This document shows, piece after piece, positions 1-11,485 of a stretch of DNA of 11,485 nt; position 1 is the first letter of the stretch, and every line of letters starts with the position of its first letter. Under the pieces are notes generated by a model, which saw only the letters and a list, made by a program, of their open reading frames with translations, was not told the origin of the DNA and did no database searches. The translations under genes and the position numbers were made by a program. The DNA is from an uncultured Clostridia bacterium (GTDB lineage Bacteria > Bacillota > Clostridia > Lachnospirales > CAMVHY01): positions 1-11,485 of the forward strand of contig CAMVHY010000015.1 in assembly GCA_947167415.1 (NCBI GenBank), written 5' to 3'.

Positions 1-130
1 AATCTCTAGAGAGTATCTACATGAAACGAATCTTTGAAATCAATTTTTTAATTTTAAAGTAAACTTGCTTAAGTTTTGGTATAATCGAACAGAAAAAGAT
101 AAGATTTTATTTAAAAACAAGATTTTTCTC

Positions 131-158
131 TTGACAACGTTTTTTTAATGTGTATAAA
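131..158 (+). promoter_or_regulatory. Probable sigma-A promoter of hup
   Basis: A perfect -35 box TTGACA (131-136) and a -10-like TATAAA (153-158) are separated by 16 bases. They lie about 55 bases before the HU start. An extended -10 motif (TGGTATAAT, 77-85) further upstream could be a second, weaker start point, but no -35 box was found for it. Confidence 0.7.
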
Positions 159-211
159 TAATACTCGCAGTTCGTAAAAAAATAATAATTTGTTTTAAAG
201 GGGGAAATTCA

Positions 212-496
212 GTGAATAAAACGCAGCTCATAAACGATGTTGCTTCGAAAATAAGTTTGTCGAAGACAGATATCGAGCAAGTTGTTAACGCTTGTTTTGA
301 AGTGGTTAGTGATACTTTAATAAGCGGTGAAAAGGTTCAATTTATCGGTTTTGGCAGTTTTGAACCTACTGTTCGTGCGGAAAGAAAATGTAGAAATCCA
401 AAAGACGGAACTCTTATGACAATTCCTGAGACAAAAACAGTACGTTTCAAAGTTGGAAAAAGTTTAAAAGAGGCTTTGGCTAAAAAAAAATCGTAA
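212..496 (+). CDS. hup: HU-family DNA-binding protein
   Basis: A 94-residue histone-like nucleoid protein that binds and bends DNA without strong sequence preference, as a dimer. The length fits the HU family. Seen in the sequence: the N-terminal helices typical of HU (MNKTQLINDVA), the conserved GFGSF turn at residues 46-50, the arm with Arg-Asn-Pro at 61-63 whose proline intercalates into DNA in known HU proteins, and a basic C-terminus. The start is GTG at 212, chosen because AAAGGGGG (197-204) sits at normal spacing and the protein then begins like other HU proteins. It has its own promoter, and rqcP follows on the same strand, an arrangement seen in many Bacillota. Integration host factor belongs to the same superfamily, but HU is the normal form in this phylum. 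Confidence 0.96.
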   Translation: MNKTQLINDVASKISLSKTDIEQVVNACFEVVSDTLISGEKVQFIGFGSFEPTVRAERKCRNPKDGTLMTIPETKTVRFKVGKSLKEALAKKKS

Positions 497-503
497 AGCA
501 AAT

Positions 504-553
504 AAGACAGTCGTCGCATATATAATTTGTGTACGGCTGTTTTTGCTTTTTTT
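504..553 (+). terminator. Terminator-like hairpin between hup and rqcP
   Basis: Bases 504-514 can pair with 533-543 (11 base pairs, including G-T pairs) around an 18-base loop. T runs follow at 541-544 and 547-553. The stem is imperfect and rqcP starts only 21 bases later, so it may act as a partial terminator that lets hup be expressed above the downstream genes. Confidence 0.55.
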
Positions 554-573
554 GGTATAAAAGGGGAAAAATT

Positions 574-831
574 ATGCGTTTAGATAAATTTTTAAAAGTA
601 TCGCGTATTATTAAACGGCGGGTTGTTGCAAATAAAGCCTGTGATAATGAAAAAGTTCTTGTGAATAATAAAACAGCAAAAGCGAGTTTAAATTTAAAAG
701 TCGGTGATGTAATAGAAATTAGGTTCGGAAATAAAATATTAAAAATAGAAGTTTTGAGTTTGATGGAAACTGTCGGAAAAAAAAATGCTGCTTCGATGTA
801 TAAAATTGTTTCGGAGGAAACTAATGGGTGA
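574..831 (+). CDS. rqcP: RNA-binding S4 domain protein RqcP
   Basis: An 85-residue protein, almost entirely one S4 RNA-binding fold (about residues 2-60). In Bacillus subtilis the homologue (formerly YabO) works with RqcH on stalled 50S subunits, where it helps add poly-alanine tails to incomplete chains in ribosome quality control. The start RLDKFLKVSRIIKRR, the KAS and LKVGD stretches and the end MYKIV closely match the Bacillus protein as I remember it, and the length is almost the same. The start is ATG 574, preceded by AAGGGG (561-566). An in-frame ATG at 529 lies inside the upstream hairpin, lacks a ribosome-binding site and would add a non-conserved extension. The 3' end overlaps the next gene by 8 bases, so the two are probably translationally coupled. 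Confidence 0.93.
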   Translation: MRLDKFLKVSRIIKRRVVANKACDNEKVLVNNKTAKASLNLKVGDVIEIRFGNKILKIEVLSLMETVGKKNAASMYKIVSEETNG

Positions 832-1681
832 GCGAAAACTTTTTTCAAACGAGTTTTTATACGTAAATCTAGGTTTAATTTTAATTGCGCTAGATATACA
901 TATTTTTAAAACGCCAAATCATTTTGCACTTGGAGGAACAAGCGGAATTGCTATAATTTTGCGCCACTTTTTTAATAATATTTCTGTTGGTATGGTCATG
1001 TTTATTTTAAATTTAGTTTTTTTGTTTTTTGGATATTTTATTTTAGGCAAAAAATTTACGATTAATACTATTTATGGTTCGTTTGTTTTGTCTTTTTTAG
1101 TTTGGATATTTGATTTTTTTTGGCCGATTAAATCGCCTTTGACAAATCAAAAATTATTAGAGTTGATTTACAGTGTTTTTTTGCCGGGAGTTGGAAACGC
1201 TTTAGTTTTTAGTTATAATTCGACGACAGGTGGAACAGATATTTTAGGCAAGATTATAAATAAATTATTTAAAATAAAATTAAGTATAGTTATGTTGATG
1301 TTGGATTTTTTGATTGCATTTGGAACAGGATTAATTTTTGGCGCAGAAGTTTGTTTGTTTTCGGTTTTGGGAGTTTGTTTAAAATCTTTTGTTTTGGATT
1401 CGGTTATGGAAAGTATTCATGTCTATAAAATTTTAGTTATAATTTCGAGTCGCAATGAAGATATAAAAAAATTTATTTGTGATGAACTGCATCGCGGCGC
1501 AACAATTCATGAAGCGCATGGAGCTTTTACAGAACATAATTATAATGTTGTGACAACGATTTTGTCGCGAAGGCAAGCAATTAAATTGCAAAATTATATT
1601 AAAAAAATTGATCCCAAAGCTTTTATTTCTGTGACAAATTCGTCAAGAATAATTGGTAATGGTTTCGACAGGTTTGATTAA
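824..1681 (+). CDS. YitT family membrane protein (DUF161/DUF2179)
   Basis: A 285-residue integral membrane protein of the YitT family. The transport or signalling role of the family is not settled. Hydrophobic segments lie at about residues 12-28, 38-50, 55-75, 86-100, 112-130, 153-171 and 174-192, with the family's glycine-rich motifs GGTSG (37-41) and STTGGTDI (133-140). A soluble C-terminal DUF2179 domain follows (about 203-275), including YNVVTTILSRRQ and the ending ISVTNSSRIIGNGF. The start is ATG 824, because GGAGG at 813-817 is well placed; an earlier in-frame ATG at 785 lies inside rqcP and adds a basic stretch not typical of the family. The overlap with rqcP suggests one operon. Several YitT paralogues per genome are common, so I give no gene symbol. 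Confidence 0.9.
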   Translation: MGERKLFSNEFLYVNLGLILIALDIHIFKTPNHFALGGTSGIAIILRHFFNNISVGMVMFILNLVFLFFGYFILGKKFTINTIYGSFVLSFLVWIFDFFWPIKSPLTNQKLLELIYSVFLPGVGNALVFSYNSTTGGTDILGKIINKLFKIKLSIVMLMLDFLIAFGTGLIFGAEVCLFSVLGVCLKSFVLDSVMESIHVYKILVIISSRNEDIKKFICDELHRGATIHEAHGAFTEHNYNVVTTILSRRQAIKLQNYIKKIDPKAFISVTNSSRIIGNGFDRFD

Positions 1682-1702
1682 TCAAATTTTTGGTGAGTAA
1701 AG

Positions 1703-2329
1703 ATGCAAAAAGAGTGTGTATATAAAATTTTAGATTTGCTGGATAAAAATTACGGTGATTTAAAATGTTATTTGGATTATAAAAGTGATTGGCAATTATT
1801 AATAGCGACAATTTTGAGCGCGCAATGTACTGACGCAAGAGTTAATATTGTGACAAAAAGTTTATTTGAAAAATATAAAACTTTGGATGATTTTTGTAAT
1901 GCTGAGCAAAAAATTTTGGAGCAAGATATAAAATCAACTGGATTTTATAAAAATAAAGCAAAAAATATAATGCTAATGGCAAAAAAATTAAAAATGGATT
2001 TTGATTATAAAATGCCGAGCGAGATAAAAGAATTAACAAGTTTGGCTGGAGTTGGAAGAAAAACTGCGAACGTAATTCGGTCACATATTTTTAAAATTCC
2101 GAGCATAGTTGTCGATACACATGTAAAAAGAATCAGTCAAAAAATCGGTTGGACGAAAAATAATGATGCGGATAAAATCGAATTTGATTTGATGAAAATT
2201 ATTCCGGAAGAAAATTGGATAAGAATAAATTTGCAATTGATAGCACACGGAAGAAAAATTTGTAAAGCGAGAAAACCAAAATGCGAAATTTGTTTTTTAA
2301 ATAAATTTTGTTTGTGGAATAAAAAATAA
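1703..2329 (+). CDS. nth: Endonuclease III (DNA glycosylase/AP lyase)
   Basis: A 208-residue base-excision repair enzyme that removes oxidised pyrimidines and cleaves the strand at abasic sites. The helix-hairpin-helix reads LAGVGRKTANVI, with the catalytic lysine at residue 120. It is followed by VVDTHVKRIS with the catalytic aspartate at 138. The C-terminus carries four cysteines at 187, 194, 197 and 203 (C-X6-C-X2-C-X5-C) that bind the [4Fe-4S] cluster. These positions coincide with those of the Escherichia coli enzyme (211 residues), so the protein looks intact and active. ATG 1703 is preceded by a modest GGTGAG (1692-1697). The gene starts 21 bases after the YitT gene and is the last of the rightward block, closed by a strong terminator. 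Confidence 0.97.
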   Translation: MQKECVYKILDLLDKNYGDLKCYLDYKSDWQLLIATILSAQCTDARVNIVTKSLFEKYKTLDDFCNAEQKILEQDIKSTGFYKNKAKNIMLMAKKLKMDFDYKMPSEIKELTSLAGVGRKTANVIRSHIFKIPSIVVDTHVKRISQKIGWTKNNDADKIEFDLMKIIPEENWIRINLQLIAHGRKICKARKPKCEICFLNKFCLWNKK

Positions 2330-2376
2330 AAAATGCGGGATATAAAAATTTCAATTTATATCACCGCATTTTTTTT
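2330..2376 (+). terminator. Rho-independent terminator after nth
   Basis: The stem is TGCGG plus GATATAAA (2334-2346), pairing with TTTATATC and CCGCA (2355-2368) with one bulged A at 2363. A run of eight T (2369-2376) follows, and A's precede the stem. It starts right after the nth stop and ends the hup-rqcP-YitT-nth unit. Confidence 0.88.
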
Positions 2377-2437
2377 GTGTGTAGAAATTTTTTTATACAT
2401 AAATTATTAATTTCATAAAAAAAATTTAATCTATATA

Positions 2438-2466
2438 TTGACATGTTAGAATTTTTGTTTTAAAAT
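2438..2466 (+). promoter_or_regulatory. Promoter of the giant protease/coiled-coil gene
   Basis: TTGACA (2438-2443), a 17-base spacer, then TAAAAT (2461-2466): a near-consensus sigma-A promoter. The leader is about 60 bases long and ends in a strong ribosome-binding site GGGGAGG (2517-2523), 8 bases before the ATG. The gene therefore appears to be transcribed independently of nth and in vegetative cells. Confidence 0.75.
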
Positions 2467-2531
2467 TAAGTTGTAGTTGTGATGGTTACAAATTTGATTT
2501 TTTATCAATAATTTTTGGGGAGGAATTTATT

Positions 2532-5500
2532 ATGGAAAATAAAATTATTGAAGGTGACAAACATAATAATAATGATTTTTTTGAAACGAATTATGAAGAC
2601 GAAAAGATGGCGGACAAATATGCAGAACTTTATAAATATCTTGTGGAAGATGAGTATGGAATAAGACATGATCTAGATAAGCTAAAACAATATTATTCTA
2701 CAGATAAGGATAAGGACTTACTTGTATATTCAATATTTGCCGTAAATTTTTGGCTTAAAAAAGAAAAAAACAAAAATAAAAATAAAATTGATATAACTGG
2801 TATAAATGTAATTGAAGAAAAAGAAGAAGAGGAAAATGATTTTTGTCTTCTAAATGATGATAATAAGTCTAATAAAAAAGGAAAAAAAGTAATTAATATA
2901 AATGCAATTGAAGAAGAAAAAGAAGGAAAAGGAGAGGAAAAAGAAAATGAAATAAAATGTATGTTGGAAGCAACTAAATATAATGTTAAATCCTACAATG
3001 TCAAGAATACGTCATACGACCATGATATCCAACAAGAAATTGATGCTGTTAATAGTATAGAGAAAATTTTTTGGGCTTTTATGAGTGTCAACCCAGAACT
3101 TTTTGATATCAAAAAATTTGATGATTTTATGAATATGAGCAACGAAGATTATGCAGAATTTTATAATGCTATATGGGCAGCGCTGTTTGTGTCCCAGCTA
3201 AAACTTATAGGTAAGTATAAGGTTTTTTTAGGTAATAATAAAACGCTGGATATTATAACTGAAAAAGATAAAACTCATCGTAATTTATTTAAAATAGATT
3301 TAATTTTGAATGAAAATGATTTGGAAAAGATTGAAGCTAGAATACAGGAAATATCCAAATTGCAAAGTTATATTTGTGCGTTGGACAATTTCTTTAAACC
3401 AGAGTCTTATTCGGTTAACGAAGCTTTTTATACAGGAAGTAAAATAACATCGATAAAAGAGGTATTAAAGCTTAGTTCTGATCAATTGGCGAAAAAACAA
3501 AACGACGATAATAGGGGAGTTCCGTTAATAGATGGATGTCTACAGGTTAAGCGAATGAAAGATAGTGATATATCAAAAATAATTAATAATTTAAAAAATC
3601 CTCCAGAACAAGAAATTAAAAATAAGCTCGAAGAAAAAATATTGTGGGATAATGAATGCACAATAGAAAAGCGAGAAGATTTTTTTAAAATAACCGCTAC
3701 CACTGACGAAATGCGAAAAAAATATAGCGAACATATGGAGTTTGTTAAAAAAAATAGTATATTTGCTGATTTAGAGACACCGATAAATAATGTTGTAAAA
3801 CGTTTTAGTGACGTTAATCCAGGTTTACAATTAAAAGATAAAAAAAATAAAGAGAATAAATTAGAAATAACAATCGAGGGGGAGTTAAGACAGAGATACA
3901 AAGATGTTCATGTTGCTACGTTTGCCGTAAATCATTTTCATAAAGATATCCAGAAAATCAGTGATGATGACAAAATAGATGAGAGTATCGCTGTTATGCA
4001 TACGCTTGAAATTGATAAAGATGCCCCGATTATAGATTTAAATAAAGCAGCGTGTACCATAGAAAAAGTTTTTTTAGCTTTTATGGATGTTGATATAAAA
4101 AATTTTGGCATCAAAAGATTTGATGCTTTTGTAAAGATGAAATCTGAAACATATATGGAAATTATTGAGATCGTTACAGCTTCAACTCATGCTTATAAAT
4201 TTATAGAAAAGTATCAAGAGTTTTTAGATGCAAATGAAGAAATAGATGAAGAGATTGAAAAACTGCGTAAAATAAAGCCACCATGCGCATTTTATCAAAC
4301 TGAAAAAGATCTTGAAAACGCAATAAACGATTATAAAAAGTCAAAAATAAATTTGGCTTTGGGCAAAAGTGATTTTGAAAAAGTTAAAAAAAGAATAGAT
4401 AAATTCTCTAGTTTTGCTGAATATTTTTATGCTTTGAAAAATATGTTTGATAATAATATGAGTAATAGCTATGCGTGTTATCTGTTAAAAAAAGACGAAA
4501 ACCAATTCAATGCATATTCGAATGTTACCGATAAAGAAAAGAATGAGGAACTTGATAGTTTTTTAAAAAGTTTATTGACTAAAAAAAATGATGAACTCAA
4601 ATCGATTTTCTTTGATAGAAACAAACTCTTATCAGGTTTATCTTATTATCTTATGTGTGTTAAAAAAAATATGCCTAATGTATTATTTAATTCGGAAAAA
4701 TTGCAAATGGAACAAAAAATTGTGAACGAGCTTAGAGAAAAAATAAATGTAGAGAAAAAGATTAATAATAAAAAACTAGATGAAGAAAATATAAAACTGA
4801 TAAAAGATTCTTATCAAAAGATTGCGGAAAATGTCTTTAATAAGAAATATGAACAATATGATTATTACGATTGTGTTAAAGAATTTCAAGAAGCTGGAAA
4901 ACAAGAAGCGCAAAAAGAAATTGATAAAGTAAAAGGAACAATTGCTGGCGAATTTATCGAAGATAAAAAAGCGAACGTTCAAAACAAAATAAAACAGTTT
5001 AATAAAACAATTGAAGACATGAAGGGAAAAAATGAAAATTATGAATCGTATAAAAAAGATTTAAATAAATATCAAAAAAAAATGGAGTGCATAGAACAAT
5101 ATGAAAAAGATAAGAAGGTTCCCGTAATTTTTGTGGGTGATAAATATTTTAACTTTCAAAGTGAATATACTGCATGCAATGAAAAACTTTACCAAAATAG
5201 TAAAATTACACTTTTTGACGAAAATAATAAGTTTATTGTTAAACAAAAAGGCAATACGTGCTATTTTATGTCAGTATTTATTGGGCTTATTTCTCAAGGG
5301 ATGGGTCGACATATACAACGAAATATAATAAGAGAATATGAAAAAGATACAACCAAAGCGGTTGTCCGTCTTTTTGATGAAAATGGTTGTCCGGTTGATT
5401 TTGTTGTAGATAAAACTAAACCTAAAGATGATACACGTCCATTATGGATAAATATGCTTGAAAAAGCTGCATCCGTAATGATGAATAAAACACAATTTAA

Positions 5501-7898
5501 AAAATCTGAGGGTCGCGGTGGACATGGCGCTCAAATAATAGTAGATGTTGATTGGAAAACGTTAGCGGAAAAACAACAAAAGAATGACGAAATTTTTGAA
5601 GAGAGCACATTTTCATCTTTGGATATAGCCAATGGCAGTGAATCAGTTGGTATTCAAATGATTCTTGGAAAAGCGTGTAAAAATAAAATTACAGGTAAAG
5701 TTGGTCGCAAAATAAGATATGCAAAAGAGGGAGATGAAGCGCTTGGTTTTTTAAGCGAAGTATTATCCAAAGGAAAATTGGTAATTGGATCAACATATCA
5801 TATAGCAGAGGAAGAGGATGAGAACAAAGAAATTCCTTACAATGATAATGGATGTGATTATGTTGGATTTGCCCCTGGCTTTAAAATCCCAGGTATACAT
5901 GTTGTGTATTTTGAATCAATTGATTTGGAATCTCAAGTGATTACTACTATTGATTCTATGACAAGGAAACAAACTATTTCGTTTGCTGATTTTAAACGAC
6001 ATTTCTTTGATATTTATGTTACAGATTTTCCAGAAGAGGCAGAAATATTGAAAAAACAGGAGCAACAAGAAGAGCTTGCAAAAAAAGCAAATGGAATGAT
6101 TGATACAATAAACAAATACTTTGACGATCTGAAGCTAAAAGAGCTAAAAGAATTGAAAGAATTTATTACAGATGAAAAGAATGAGTTAAAAATAATTCAG
6201 GAATCAATAAAACAAAATTGTGAGAGTTTGGATAAATACAAATCTGAGTTTGATGATAAAGATAAAGGAACTGAACTTGGAATTAAAAACCTAAGTGACA
6301 GTATTTCACAATTTAAAAATGCAACGGACCAATCTAGGATTGAGATAAATACACGAAAAAATGATGTTTGTAATAAAATGAACGTTAAAATCAAAGATTT
6401 AGATAATGAAATATTAAGATTTGATAGTGCAATAACAAACATCAATGGTAACCTAGATGAAACGAAACGAACTATCAATAACGATATGGAAAATGTCAAT
6501 AAATCAAAGGAAAACATTAATATTTTAATGACACAGGCCGAAAAAGAACTTAACATTAACAACATAAAATTACTCAGTCTTGATGAATTAAATAATGCGC
6601 AGAAACTGATTAACGACACAGTAAAAACACGGATCCAAGATCTAGAAAATAAATTACAGAGTATTACAGAACAGGTATTGAGTGCTATTCAAACAATAGT
6701 AGATACAAAAACAAACTTAGAGGGAAAAATAATAGATGACAATTTTATAAACACCACCAAAGAAAAAATATTACAAGAAAGGGAATCTTGCTCAGCTGAA
6801 ATTGAAAAATTAAATAACTTGAAACTTGATAGTTCAGAGCAAAAGAAATTAAAAGCAACAATAGAAGAATTGAGGAATAAAATAGGTGGCTACGAAAAAG
6901 AAATGTCTACAATAGACAAGAGTATTGTTAAACTAAACAGGATGAAACAAAATATCAAAGATCAAATAAAAACGTGTCTTGATAAAGCAGATAACATACA
7001 ACGACTAGACAAACTAAATACTATGAAAGAAAATCTCGTAAAACTAACAGACGATCCGAACGCGACGACAGAACTTAAAAAATTGATAGAAACAAATCTT
7101 GGTGAATTACAAACAAAAACAGATGATTTTCAGAAACAAATAAATACCAGTTTAAAAACATTAAATGATTTAGAAGATAATCTTGAGAATACAGAGCAAA
7201 ACATTAAGACATTGGATAGCACAAAAGAAAAATTTCAGAAACAAATAGAGGCCAGTTTAAAAACATTAAATGATTTAGAAGATAATCTTGAGAATGCAGA
7301 ACAAAACATTAAGACATTGGATAACACAAAAGAAAACTTTCAGAAACAAATAAATACCAGTTTAAAAACATTAAATGATTTAGAAGATAATCTTAAGAAT
7401 ACAGAGCAAAACATTAAGAAATTGGATAGCACAAAAGAAAAATTTCAGAAACAAGTTGACCAGCAAGTCCAAGATAAAAAAGCATCGTCAAATAGATATA
7501 TACAACAAAAATCGCAAAAATTAAAAGAAATAAAAGATAAAATTGTGTATATCCAGAATGAGTTAAACGAAGCGATTATGGAAAAATATAATATTACTTC
7601 TAACAAAATGAAAAGATATGGAATCATTGCCGCTATTTTAGGTGTGTTTGGAATAATTTTAATTTTAGTAATTCCGATCGTTAAAATTGTTTTTATCGTC
7701 ATTCCTTCGCTGTTTGCGTTGTTTGGTGTTATTTTACTTGGAATGTATTCTTATCGTGAAATAAAAAAACCATTTCTAGTAATTAACCTTAGTATCCAAT
7801 CTAAAGATAGTGTCATTGATGTTAATTTAGACTTAAAAAAGTGTAAAGAAACGGTTCAAAATCAAGATGTTAACAATAAAGATTTAAATCTAAATTAA
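2532..7898 (+). CDS. Giant protein: duplicated N-terminal module, calpain-like cysteine protease, coiled coil, C-terminal membrane hairpin
   Basis: A 1788-residue protein that I do not recognise as a whole. In order: a duplicated module of unknown function (about residues 66-300 and 461-651), with a Lys/Glu-rich insert at 78-145 in the first copy; a helical charged linker (about 720-860); a calpain-like clan CA cysteine protease domain (about 895-1165); a Lys/Glu/Asn-rich coiled-coil region (about 1170-1690) with three 35-residue repeats at 1533-1637; two hydrophobic segments (about 1696-1716 and 1719-1739); and a 50-residue tail. There is no N-terminal signal peptide or anchor, so the bulk is either cytoplasmic and tethered by its C-terminus, or exported by a route not visible here. 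The ATG start is fixed by GGGGAGG (2517-2523). It is a single intact frame with its own promoter and terminator. The substrate is unknown; a membrane-tethered processing protease or a host-directed effector are both possible. Confidence 0.9.
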   Translation: MENKIIEGDKHNNNDFFETNYEDEKMADKYAELYKYLVEDEYGIRHDLDKLKQYYSTDKDKDLLVYSIFAVNFWLKKEKNKNKNKIDITGINVIEEKEEEENDFCLLNDDNKSNKKGKKVININAIEEEKEGKGEEKENEIKCMLEATKYNVKSYNVKNTSYDHDIQQEIDAVNSIEKIFWAFMSVNPELFDIKKFDDFMNMSNEDYAEFYNAIWAALFVSQLKLIGKYKVFLGNNKTLDIITEKDKTHRNLFKIDLILNENDLEKIEARIQEISKLQSYICALDNFFKPESYSVNEAFYTGSKITSIKEVLKLSSDQLAKKQNDDNRGVPLIDGCLQVKRMKDSDISKIINNLKNPPEQEIKNKLEEKILWDNECTIEKREDFFKITATTDEMRKKYSEHMEFVKKNSIFADLETPINNVVKRFSDVNPGLQLKDKKNKENKLEITIEGELRQRYKDVHVATFAVNHFHKDIQKISDDDKIDESIAVMHTLEIDKDAPIIDLNKAACTIEKVFLAFMDVDIKNFGIKRFDAFVKMKSETYMEIIEIVTASTHAYKFIEKYQEFLDANEEIDEEIEKLRKIKPPCAFYQTEKDLENAINDYKKSKINLALGKSDFEKVKKRIDKFSSFAEYFYALKNMFDNNMSNSYACYLLKKDENQFNAYSNVTDKEKNEELDSFLKSLLTKKNDELKSIFFDRNKLLSGLSYYLMCVKKNMPNVLFNSEKLQMEQKIVNELREKINVEKKINNKKLDEENIKLIKDSYQKIAENVFNKKYEQYDYYDCVKEFQEAGKQEAQKEIDKVKGTIAGEFIEDKKANVQNKIKQFNKTIEDMKGKNENYESYKKDLNKYQKKMECIEQYEKDKKVPVIFVGDKYFNFQSEYTACNEKLYQNSKITLFDENNKFIVKQKGNTCYFMSVFIGLISQGMGRHIQRNIIREYEKDTTKAVVRLFDENGCPVDFVVDKTKPKDDTRPLWINMLEKAASVMMNKTQFKKSEGRGGHGAQIIVDVDWKTLAEKQQKNDEIFEESTFSSLDIANGSESVGIQMILGKACKNKITGKVGRKIRYAKEGDEALGFLSEVLSKGKLVIGSTYHIAEEEDENKEIPYNDNGCDYVGFAPGFKIPGIHVVYFESIDLESQVITTIDSMTRKQTISFADFKRHFFDIYVTDFPEEAEILKKQEQQEELAKKANGMIDTINKYFDDLKLKELKELKEFITDEKNELKIIQESIKQNCESLDKYKSEFDDKDKGTELGIKNLSDSISQFKNATDQSRIEINTRKNDVCNKMNVKIKDLDNEILRFDSAITNINGNLDETKRTINNDMENVNKSKENINILMTQAEKELNINNIKLLSLDELNNAQKLINDTVKTRIQDLENKLQSITEQVLSAIQTIVDTKTNLEGKIIDDNFINTTKEKILQERESCSAEIEKLNNLKLDSSEQKKLKATIEELRNKIGGYEKEMSTIDKSIVKLNRMKQNIKDQIKTCLDKADNIQRLDKLNTMKENLVKLTDDPNATTELKKLIETNLGELQTKTDDFQKQINTSLKTLNDLEDNLENTEQNIKTLDSTKEKFQKQIEASLKTLNDLEDNLENAEQNIKTLDNTKENFQKQINTSLKTLNDLEDNLKNTEQNIKKLDSTKEKFQKQVDQQVQDKKASSNRYIQQKSQKLKEIKDKIVYIQNELNEAIMEKYNITSNKMKRYGIIAAILGVFGIILILVIPIVKIVFIVIPSLFALFGVILLGMYSYREIKKPFLVINLSIQSKDSVIDVNLDLKKCKETVQNQDVNNKDLNLN
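2727..4484 (+). repeat. Diverged internal duplication in the giant protein (two copies of one module)
   Basis: Copy 1 spans residues 66-300 (2727-3431) and copy 2 residues 461-651 (3912-4484). FAVN occurs at 69-72 and 464-467. The block beginning IEKIFWAFM (176) matches the one beginning IEKVFLAFM (510): 18 of 34 residues are identical by eye, without gaps. KIDLILNENDLEKIEARI (254) matches KINLALGKSDFEKVKKRI (605): 9 of 18. Copy 1 is longer because of an acidic and lysine-rich insert at residues 78-145. The copies are old, since the DNA no longer matches. I do not recognise the module. Confidence 0.8.
5214..6026 (+). other. Calpain-like (clan CA, C2-type) cysteine protease domain
   Basis: This is the part of the giant protein at about residues 895-1165. 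KQKGNTCYFMS supplies the oxyanion-hole Gln905 and nucleophile Cys910 (codon 5259-5261), and matches the calpain pattern Q-G-x-x-G-D-C-[WY] apart from small changes. The next calpain landmarks are also present: VVRLFDENGCPVDFVVD (strand pair), LWINMLEKAA (the usual LW-LLEKA helix), a glycine-rich segment, HVVYFESID with the probable catalytic His1123, IDSMT with Asp1141 in the place of calpain's Asn, and a closing ISFADFKRHFFDIYV. All catalytic positions seem filled, so activity is likely. No calcium-binding domains are visible. The assignment to C2 rather than another papain-like family rests on motif order only. Confidence 0.75.
7128..7442 (+). repeat. Three tandem 105-bp repeats (35-residue coiled-coil units)
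   Basis: Copies at 7128-7232, 7233-7337 and 7338-7442 each encode a unit starting FQKQ and containing SLKTLNDLEDNL; a fourth copy begins at 7443 (FQKQV) and stops matching. Copy 2 differs from copy 1 at 7 bases, while copy 3 differs from copy 1 at only 2 by my count. 35 residues is exactly five heptads, so adding or losing a copy keeps both the reading frame and the coiled-coil register. Confidence 0.95.
7617..7748 (+). other. C-terminal hydrophobic hairpin (two membrane segments) of the giant protein
   Basis: Residues about 1696-1716 and 1719-1739 are two uncharged hydrophobic stretches separated by only a few residues, with Lys1718 between them. Basic residues flank both sides (KMKRY before, YREIKK after). 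The short loop and flanking charges favour a hairpin with both ends on the same side of the membrane. About 50 mostly polar residues follow. Confidence 0.8.
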
Positions 7899-7940
7899 AT
7901 ATAAATAAAGGTTTGAATTTATTGGAATAATTTGTCAAAA

Positions 7941-7975
7941 AAAATAAAGCCAATAATTTTTTTGGCTTTATTTTT
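7941..7975. terminator. Bidirectional terminator after the giant gene
   Basis: A perfect 13-bp stem pairs 7941-7953 with 7962-7974 around an 8-base loop. The stem contains AAAGCCAA/TTGGCTTT and is flanked by T's on the right and A's on the left, so it can also end minus-strand transcripts arriving from the IS remnant side. Confidence 0.9.
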
Positions 7976-8043: not shown

Positions 8044-8130
8044 GTTTTTTCCTTCTTGATTTTTATCTTTATTCTCATCGCTTATCTATTGCGCTATAGA
8101 AAGTGTGTACGTAAGAAAAATTTAAAATAA

Positions 8131-8716
8131 TTATAAATACATAAAGATACAACGAATATAAATAGAAGCGATGAAACCATCGAGCGTTTTAGCGTATCTG
8201 GTAGCGACACCGCGTCAATGTTTAAAAGCAAGGAAAGTATTCTCGATAATATGTAGAAAACAATAAAGTTTACGGTGAGACTACTGTCTCTTTTCTTCAA
8301 AACCCTAAAATCTTTAAAATCACGTTGTTCAAATCTGTTGCGTTTTGGAAGGATAACTGCTTTTATGTTTCGTTTTGCAATATAAGACAAGACTTCGTTG
8401 GTATCATAAACACGATCTGCAAAGACTAATTTTGCATCGAGATTTTTGAGCAAGTTAATAGCTTCTTTATAATCGGCATACTTCTCCTCTGTAACAATAA
8501 ATTTTACAGGCAGACCGTGCTCATTGACGGCTAATTATAATTTTTTGAATTGAGCTTCCTTTTGTCTTTGATATGGCCAGATTTCCGCCGCGAGCTCCAA
8601 CTGCATGCTGATGCGCTTTTACATAACTTGAGTCTATCATTAACCATACCTTTCAATATCTCAAATAATTTTTTCAACATGCCTTTTTGTTGCCATCGAA
8701 TAAATACATCATTATA
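8131..8716 (-). pseudogene. Decayed IS5-family transposase, 5'-truncated, multiple frameshifts
   Basis: The minus strand holds pieces of a DDE transposase of the IS5 family (IS427/IS1031-like layout) in changing frames. From the N-terminal side: YNDVFIRWQQKGMLKKLFEI (from 8716); a frameshift to MIDSSYVKAHQHAVGARGGN (from 8640, first catalytic Asp); a frameshift to LAVNEHGLPVKFIVTEE and on to LVFADRVYDTNEV (second Asp), running to about 8300; then a frameshift to HIIENTFLAFKH (Glu) and RGVATRYAKTLDGFIASIYI, ending at 8131. In-frame stops lie at 8537-8535 and at 8217-8215, where a Trp is expected. About 60 N-terminal residues are missing, with stop codons upstream of YND. The protein cannot be made, and without a helper copy the element is dead. 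Confidence 0.88.
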
Positions 8717-11363: not shown

Positions 11364-11392
11364 TTGACAAATAAAAATTTTTGCTTTAGAAT
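11364..11392 (+). promoter_or_regulatory. Consensus-quality promoter reading into the right edge
   Basis: TTGACA (11364-11369), exactly 17 bases, then TAGAAT (11387-11392). It diverges from holA. The expected start of transcription, near 11399, falls at the first bases of the ribosome-binding-site-like GGGGAG (11400-11405), which would leave almost no leader. Confidence 0.8.
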
Positions 11393-11404
11393 CTACATTG
11401 GGGA

Positions 11405-11434
11405 GCGTTAAATGGCGTCGCGTTAAATGGCGTC
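11405..11434 (+). repeat. Perfect 15-bp tandem duplication
   Basis: GCGTTAAATGGCGTC occurs at 11405-11419 and again at 11420-11434 with no gap or mismatch. Each copy contains an ATG in the same frame, because the unit is a multiple of three, and each contains TAA directly before its ATG. Confidence 0.95.
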
Positions 11435-11485
11435 ATTTTTTTATTTTGATTATGCTCTCAAAATGATGTTTCTTGATATTTTTTT
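11427..11485 (+). CDS. Possible 5' end of a gene cut by the window edge
   Basis: From the ATG in the second copy of the 15-bp repeat the frame reads MASFFYFDYALKMMFLDIF and is open to the window end. Upstream lie a consensus promoter and GGGGAG (11400-11405). That site is best spaced for the first ATG (11412), which gives only MASR and a TAA directly touching the second ATG. Translation of the longer frame would therefore need restart at the adjacent ATG. The product cannot be named from 19 residues. It does not look like ribosomal protein S20, which often neighbours holA. Confidence 0.35.
   Translation, partial: MASFFYFDYALKMMFLDIF

Follow-up and report, generated by a model that had tools for sequence, protein, structure and literature searches.

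Calpains (peptidase family C2, Pfam model PF00648) are rare in bacteria; the 2015 survey by Rawlings covers 67 bacterial homologues, of which three are named as having predicted transmembrane helices (PMC4631099). According to the text of that survey, the membrane-associated calpains of Bacteroides sp. D2 and Salinispora join a calpain-type domain to predicted transmembrane helices (PMC4631099). In plants, the calpain domain of DEK1 is described as tethered to the membrane, with 21 to 24 predicted membrane segments before the core (PMC13413365). A report on cyanobacterial calpains, for which it gives no predicted membrane helices, states that the function of calpains in bacteria is unknown (PMC9380684). 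Here we analyzed an 11,485-nucleotide stretch (the window), contig C15 (G000:C15; CAMVHY010000015.1) of an uncultured Clostridia bacterium whose genome (the own genome) comprises 1.37 Mb in 220 contigs and is 76.6% complete. One gene in the window encodes a 1788-residue protein, P0001, in which a calpain-like peptidase core is followed by a coil and a membrane hairpin. In the bacterial calpains of the survey the layout differs as far as it is described there, and they are set apart from P0001 by description only (PMC4631099), whereas DEK1 differs in that P0001 has one hairpin after the core (PMC13413365). We read the core as a papain-like peptidase of predicted fold, closest to calpains but outside the curated C2 family. 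The parts of the gene are as follows.

2532 to 7898, plus strand: intact protein with calpain-like core, coil, and membrane hairpin (1788 residues, one open frame, no internal stop)
3042 to 3647, plus strand: N-terminal repeat 1 (residues 171 to 372, internal duplication)
4044 to 4751, plus strand: N-terminal repeat 2 (residues 505 to 740, internal duplication)
5112 to 6056, plus strand: calpain-like peptidase core (residues ~861 to 1175)
5244 to 5246, plus strand: Q905, proposed oxyanion-hole Gln (kept in 16/16 rows; paired with the calpain Gln)
5259 to 5261, plus strand: C910, proposed nucleophile (kept in 16/16 rows; paired with the calpain Cys)
5898 to 5900, plus strand: H1123, proposed general base (kept in 16/16 rows; paired with the calpain His and the C39 His)
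5952 to 5954, plus strand: D1141, proposed third residue (Asp in 11/17 and Glu in 6/17 rows; paired with the C39 Asp)
6057 to 7601, plus strand: coil leash (residues ~1176 to 1690; from composition, heptad periodicity at 1501 to 1650, and 27% identity between P0001 and P0002)
7128 to 7454, plus strand: 105-bp (35-residue) tandem repeat, 3.1 copies, inside the coil and its strong-heptad region
7608 to 7754, plus strand: membrane hairpin (residues 1693 to 1741, from hydropathy; positive residues on both outer flanks)

The homologue search proposed by the original prediction yielded a paralogue and 15 relatives besides the window protein (P0002 to P0010 and P0013 to P0018). The paralogue lies on contig C57 of the own genome, has at least 567 residues, is open at the contig end, and shares 44% identity over residues 834 to 1089. 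The relatives came from a 5.8-billion-protein database, and their number is a lower bound: the searches see proteins of similar length only, and one of them scored the 8000 candidates sharing most words. The 16 core rows are those that reach Gln, Cys, and His, cut around a Q...TCY/DCW motif; only P0018, a partial protein of a Firmicutes metagenome-assembled genome (the source's name) that starts after the motif, was dropped. Two pairs of rows are identical or nearly so in the core, which leaves about 14 distinct rows.

The four landmarks named by the original prediction (Q905, C910, H1123, and D1141) are where it had put them and are conserved across the family. As in C2, a Gln precedes the nucleophilic Cys and a His lies in the second half in every one of the 16 rows. 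This invariance holds among sequences down to 27% identity with the window core, and it was also seen in alignments built without the Q...TCY/DCW motif. Most rows have a Gln-Cys spacing of 5, compared with 6 in calpain-1 and 7 in P0007 and the DCW group. A chance origin of the landmarks was rejected on the strength of the 16/16 rows with Gln, Cys, and His together with Asp or Glu at position 1141 in 17/17. Conservation of this kind is the constraint expected of an enzyme, and we argue for catalytic activity because the predicted catalytic residues are conserved.

The gene is intact. Its open reading frame (2532 to 7898, plus strand) opens with ATG after the ribosome-binding site GGGGAGG, and the single stop-free frame of 1788 residues that had been predicted was confirmed. 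In the N-terminal part, hhalign paired residues 171 to 372 with residues 505 to 740 at a probability of 98.5% and a score of 114.6; none of 40 shuffles scored above 20.9. Behind the core, residues ~1176 to 1690 are poor in Gly, Pro, and Trp. The 3.5-residue power is 11.5 to 15.2 in the segments 1501 to 1600 and 1551 to 1650 and at most 4.7 in all others; the coil outside 1501 to 1650 is thus named from composition alone, and the coil and membrane calls come from composition, periodicity, and hydropathy. Residues 1693 to 1741 form the sole stretch with a 19-residue mean hydropathy of at least 1.6 and have KMKRY on their N-terminal side and YREIKKP on their C-terminal side. No signal peptide was found by hydropathy, with residues 1 to 70 peaking at -0.47. 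The original prediction had put a long coiled coil and two membrane segments behind the core and had seen no signal peptide. The order of core, leash, and hairpin is real and common to the relatives, the hairpin stretch is long enough for two segments, and the absence of a signal peptide agrees with the hydropathy; the coiled coil held up by composition over its whole length and by strong heptad periodicity in one part.

Next, we examined the relation to calpains. The profile search against C2 that the original prediction had proposed found nothing: PF00648 gave no match above its curated cut-off, none at E<=1 for the window protein, P0002 to P0010, or the paralogue, none at E<=0.1 in P0013 to P0018, and none at E<=10 across the own genome. 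Pfam found no other calpain domain in the protein, matches to NCBIfam models were in the coil or weak only, and PHROGs gave one weak match (E 0.027) at the end of the coil and hairpin. In the Protein Data Bank (PDB), nothing was found at E<=10 with the family profile and nothing with P0009, and single-sequence comparison gave no PDB match inside the core. The calpain likeness of the original prediction was instead borne out at the profile level. As a C2 reference we used six sequences, human and rat calpain-1 and plasmid-encoded proteins of Cedecea, Streptomyces, Calothrix, and Mycolicibacterium; two of these four bacterial records are annotated as C2 family cysteine protease, and the remaining two were identified by tblastn alone. 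Alignment of the 16-row core to this reference by hhalign gave a score of 51.1 and a probability of 88.7% over 148 columns running from Gln to His, with Gln, Cys, and His paired with their calpain counterparts; the maximum of 60 column shuffles was 20.8. Against the bacterial C2 rows alone the score was 46.4 and the probability 81%. An earlier 10-row profile had scored 49.7 against C2, compared with 12.7 and 11.8 for reversed profiles and at most 21.1 in 60 shuffles. In addition, the PLW...LEKA block of the family pairs with the W...LLEKA block of calpains.

The family thus resembles C2 in its Gln-Cys order, its PLW/LEKA block, its His, and its profile similarity, and differs from it in having Asp or Glu for Asn, no Asp three residues before the Gln, and a leash and hairpin behind the core. 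Where C2 has Asn as the third residue, with Asp tolerated, the 17 rows have Asp (11) or Glu (6). The Asp at Gln-3, which we take to be the calcium site 1 residue in calpain numbering, is found in 0/16 family rows and in 6/6 C2 rows. Its loss is not decisive, because only some bacterial homologues are reported to keep site 1 (PMC4631099). For PalB, Asp in place of Asn is reported to be compatible with activity (PMC4631099).

A second comparison was made with C39, the bacteriocin-processing domain of ATP-binding cassette (ABC) transporters. C2 and C39 are both papain-like and belong to clan CA. The His-Asp half of the family aligned to a two-row C39 reference with a score of 37.2 over 40 columns and 37.3 over 58 columns, values without shuffle controls. 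H1123 and D1141 coincide with the His and Asp of C39, and the Cys half lies outside both alignments. Unlike C39, the family protein carries no ABC transporter, and PF03412 (C39) has no match in the own genome. C39 membership was rejected, the similarity being limited to 40 to 58 columns of the His-Asp half and PF03412 being silent. The family profile also matches the His-Asp half of a C39 domain at G033:C24, which hints at kinship in that half.

Given these comparisons, the family is, as judged from profiles, too divergent to be filed as C2 and is better placed as a calpain-related, papain-like clade. This distant bacterial branch, which has a membrane hairpin and lacks the site 1 Asp, escapes the curated model. 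Its existence suggests that bacterial relatives of calpains are undercounted in PF00648-based censuses. Our literature search, which covered titles and the starts of abstracts with subscription papers mostly outside it, found no description of a bacterial calpain with a coil and a C-terminal hairpin. The family offers new material for the question of calpain origins and a testable bacterial membrane relative of calpains.

A tree of the 16 core rows has three supported groups. The giants P0001 to P0004 form the first (support 95/97). The second holds P0005, P0006, P0007 (on a long branch), and the own paralogue, proteins of 250 to 600 residues (support 96/95), and the third, with the classical DCW motif, holds P0009, P0010, and P0013 to P0017 (support 100/100). 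The placement of P0008, a long branch, is unsure. A hairpin-like stretch lies near the end of 13/17 members and is missing from P0006, P0007, P0008, and P0010; by eye, P0006 and P0010 appear to have been shortened. The distance between the end of the core slice and the hairpin is 516 to 567 residues in the giants versus 95 to 206 in the eight others measured. In P0007, residues ~365 to 460, picked by eye, look SUMO/Rad60-like, with matches to the PDB entry 2k8h (E 0.01) and, in Pfam, to PF11976 (Rad60-SLD; E 0.027), where Prophage_tail (E 0.0017) ranks first. The precomputed Pfam labels PF19220 (P0001) and PF28006 (P0002) were not reproduced by hmmscan at E<=1.

The family was seldom found in genomes. 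In a sample of the order, the family profile matched 2/392 genomes, the own genome and the C39 domain of an ABC transporter (E 5.9e-5); in a sample of the phylum, the own genome was the sole match among 398; and a single-sequence search of 56 relatives' genomes matched one, again the own genome. LepA, encoded on C57 along with the paralogue, shares up to 75% identity with LepA of uncultured Clostridia (best 80 of 523 loci). The genomes of 40 of these 80 loci gave 0 matches, but this set held no positive genome and its empty answer shows nothing. These genome sets overlap, and close kin of the window may be left out of some collections. A family-profile search found no relative in general genome contigs. 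Beside lepA, a further gene (locus L003, 3458 to 4978, plus strand) encodes a 507-residue protein that has two hydrophobic hairpin regions resembling each other and matches no Pfam family significantly.

We then compared the rates at which the parts change. Between P0001 and P0002, identity is 31 to 45% in the N-terminal parts, 61% in the core, 27% in the coil, 53% in the hairpin, and 15% in the tail. P0003 and P0004 agree at 330/331 positions of the core and 57/57 of the hairpin and at 413/487 of the coil, with 39 gaps. Conservation is thus seen in the predicted enzyme and anchor and rapid change in the leash, for which gain and loss of repeats is a plausible mechanism. That P0003 and P0004 differ almost only in the coil could reflect strain-level variation of the leash, and an assembly error in the repetitive coil is also possible.

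The simplest reading of these data, and on balance a probable one, is a membrane-tethered, inward-facing protease with a regulatory or processing role. The gene product would be an active calpain-related (papain-like) cysteine peptidase, anchored to the membrane by its C-terminal hairpin. Its core is placed on the inward side because positive charges lie on both outer flanks of the hairpin; it would face the side of synthesis, which, barring export of the protein, is the bacterial cytosol. The leash, a long coil in the giants and a shorter polar linker in other members, would join the core to the membrane and let it reach substrates. The coil suggests reach and self-association, and in the giants cores might cluster around substrates. 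The duplicated N-terminal domain probably serves in partner recognition or in restraint of the protease. Substrates would most likely be a few membrane-near proteins cut at chosen sites, in signalling or processing, and control would operate without the site 1 calcium regulation of animal calpains.

Several results weigh against this reading. No curated model or solved PDB chain recognizes the core, and the alignment of the 16-row core to the calpain-1 rows alone is weak (score 27.2, probability 6%). Neither calpain alignment pairs D1141 with the Asn of calpains: the residue lies in a gapped stretch of the 10-row alignment and beyond the end of the 16-row alignment. A catalytic-type Asp stands opposite D1141 in the C39 alignment only. 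The third residue is Glu in six members, the own paralogue among them, which is not typical, and part of the sequence linking the PLW block to the His half is missing from P0006. Strong heptad periodicity is confined to residues 1501 to 1650, and the topology is drawn from charge and hydropathy alone.

A more doubtful explanation, to which we give a modest chance, is an effector that is delivered into a eukaryote (a gut protist or an animal cell) or another bacterium, becomes fixed in the membrane by its hairpin, and cuts targets there. It would account for a C-terminal hairpin in a protein with no signal peptide by hydropathy, and for a paralogous family with a fast-changing segment and a patchy distribution. 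Contig C92 of the own genome encodes a VirD4-type coupling protein (PF02534), a TrbL/VirB6-like neighbour (E 0.0011, below cut-off), and, adjoining the coupling protein, proteins that are pilin-like by eye; P0007, moreover, ends in a weak SUMO-like segment. However, the coupling protein may come from a conjugative element of the ordinary kind, even though a search for a PF03432 relaxase was negative. FHIPEP (type III secretion or flagella) and ankyrin repeats were absent from the own genome, which is 76.6% complete, and WXG100 was absent above cut-off. The SUMO-like piece occurs in one relative, below cut-offs, and with Prophage_tail as Pfam's top match. A bolder form of this idea, which we consider unlikely, is that an uncultured Clostridia lineage sends membrane-anchored calpain-like proteases into eukaryotic partners such as gut protists, with strains differing in the coil through shuffling of repeats and a SUMO-like domain on one member. 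If true, Gram-positive symbionts would have a calpain-based family of effectors that arose from a papain-like clade outside C2. Export by the WXG100 route was rejected as a candidate: the sole genomic match falls in the coil of the window protein and is below cut-off (E 0.0038). At 2 to 5016 on the minus strand, C92 carries the type IV secretion-type genes, namely those for the VirD4/TraG coupling protein, the TrbL/VirB6-like protein, and three proteins that are pilin-like by eye; a gene that is murB-like by eye adjoins them. The pilin-like proteins contain one or two copies of a repeated segment and have no Pfam support.

It is improbable that the protein serves in conflict or defence, where a phage or plasmid would trigger it to kill or arrest the cell by cutting host proteins. 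Patchy distribution, fast evolution of the parts around the core, and membrane attachment would fit such a role, but there was no match in viral contigs (family profile), plasmids (tblastn, window core), or phages (tblastn, P0009), and no recognizable defence gene adjoins it in the window, where the neighbours were scanned with Pfam and not with PADLOC. PADLOC matches of the window protein (LmuB and JetC, best E 5.1e-5) are confined to the coil, and a known defence system was rejected. The least probable alternative, a dead peptidase fold used for binding, would suit the extreme divergence from C2 and the Glu at the third position in 6/17, but Gln, Cys, and His are unchanged in 16/16 rows, and the non-peptidase calpain homologues it would resemble are described as recognized by replaced active-site residues (PMC4631099). 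As a separate observation, C2 family cysteine protease genes are annotated on plasmids NZ_CP023526.1 and NZ_CP122997.1; the 2015 survey states that no plasmid-borne calpain homologues were found (PMC4631099).

Returning to the window, the gene of the proposed membrane-tethered protease is accompanied by the following features.

2438 to 2466, plus strand: promoter-like site TTGACA-17-TAAAAT, 11/12 (consensus match, only suggestive)
2517 to 2523, plus strand: ribosome-binding site GGGGAGG, read in the sequence
7940 to 7975, plus strand: intrinsic terminator of the protease gene (14-bp stem, -15.8 kcal/mol, z -5.2)
8094 to 8534, minus strand: DDE transposase remnant (PF01609, E 4.8e-7)

The original prediction had given the gene its own strong promoter and terminator. 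The terminator is well supported. The promoter at 2438 to 2466 is a mere consensus match and only suggestive, because such sites are as frequent in the window as in shuffles (65 observed versus 66.4). Upstream are HU-type, S4-domain, YitT-family, and endonuclease III genes; downstream are the transposase remnant, an SDF symporter gene, and a DNA polymerase III delta gene. With the endonuclease III gene next to it on the 5' side and the transposase remnant on the 3' side, the neighbours fit the predicted setting between housekeeping genes and insertion sequence debris. "Acquired or fast-evolving cargo," as the gene had been called, divides: the coil is fast evolving (27% against 61% in the core), and the sole point for acquisition is patchy distribution. 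G+C content at third codon positions (GC3) is 0.219 in the protease gene and 0.210 to 0.252 in the four neighbours measured, so that composition gives no support for acquisition, and a recent acquisition was rejected on this ground. Pieces at 8521 to 8716 in other frames may complete the transposase (by eye; the one tested had no Pfam support). At 11405 to 11438, a 15-bp unit in two perfect copies overlaps a terminator-like hairpin and is preceded by a promoter-like site at 11364 to 11392.
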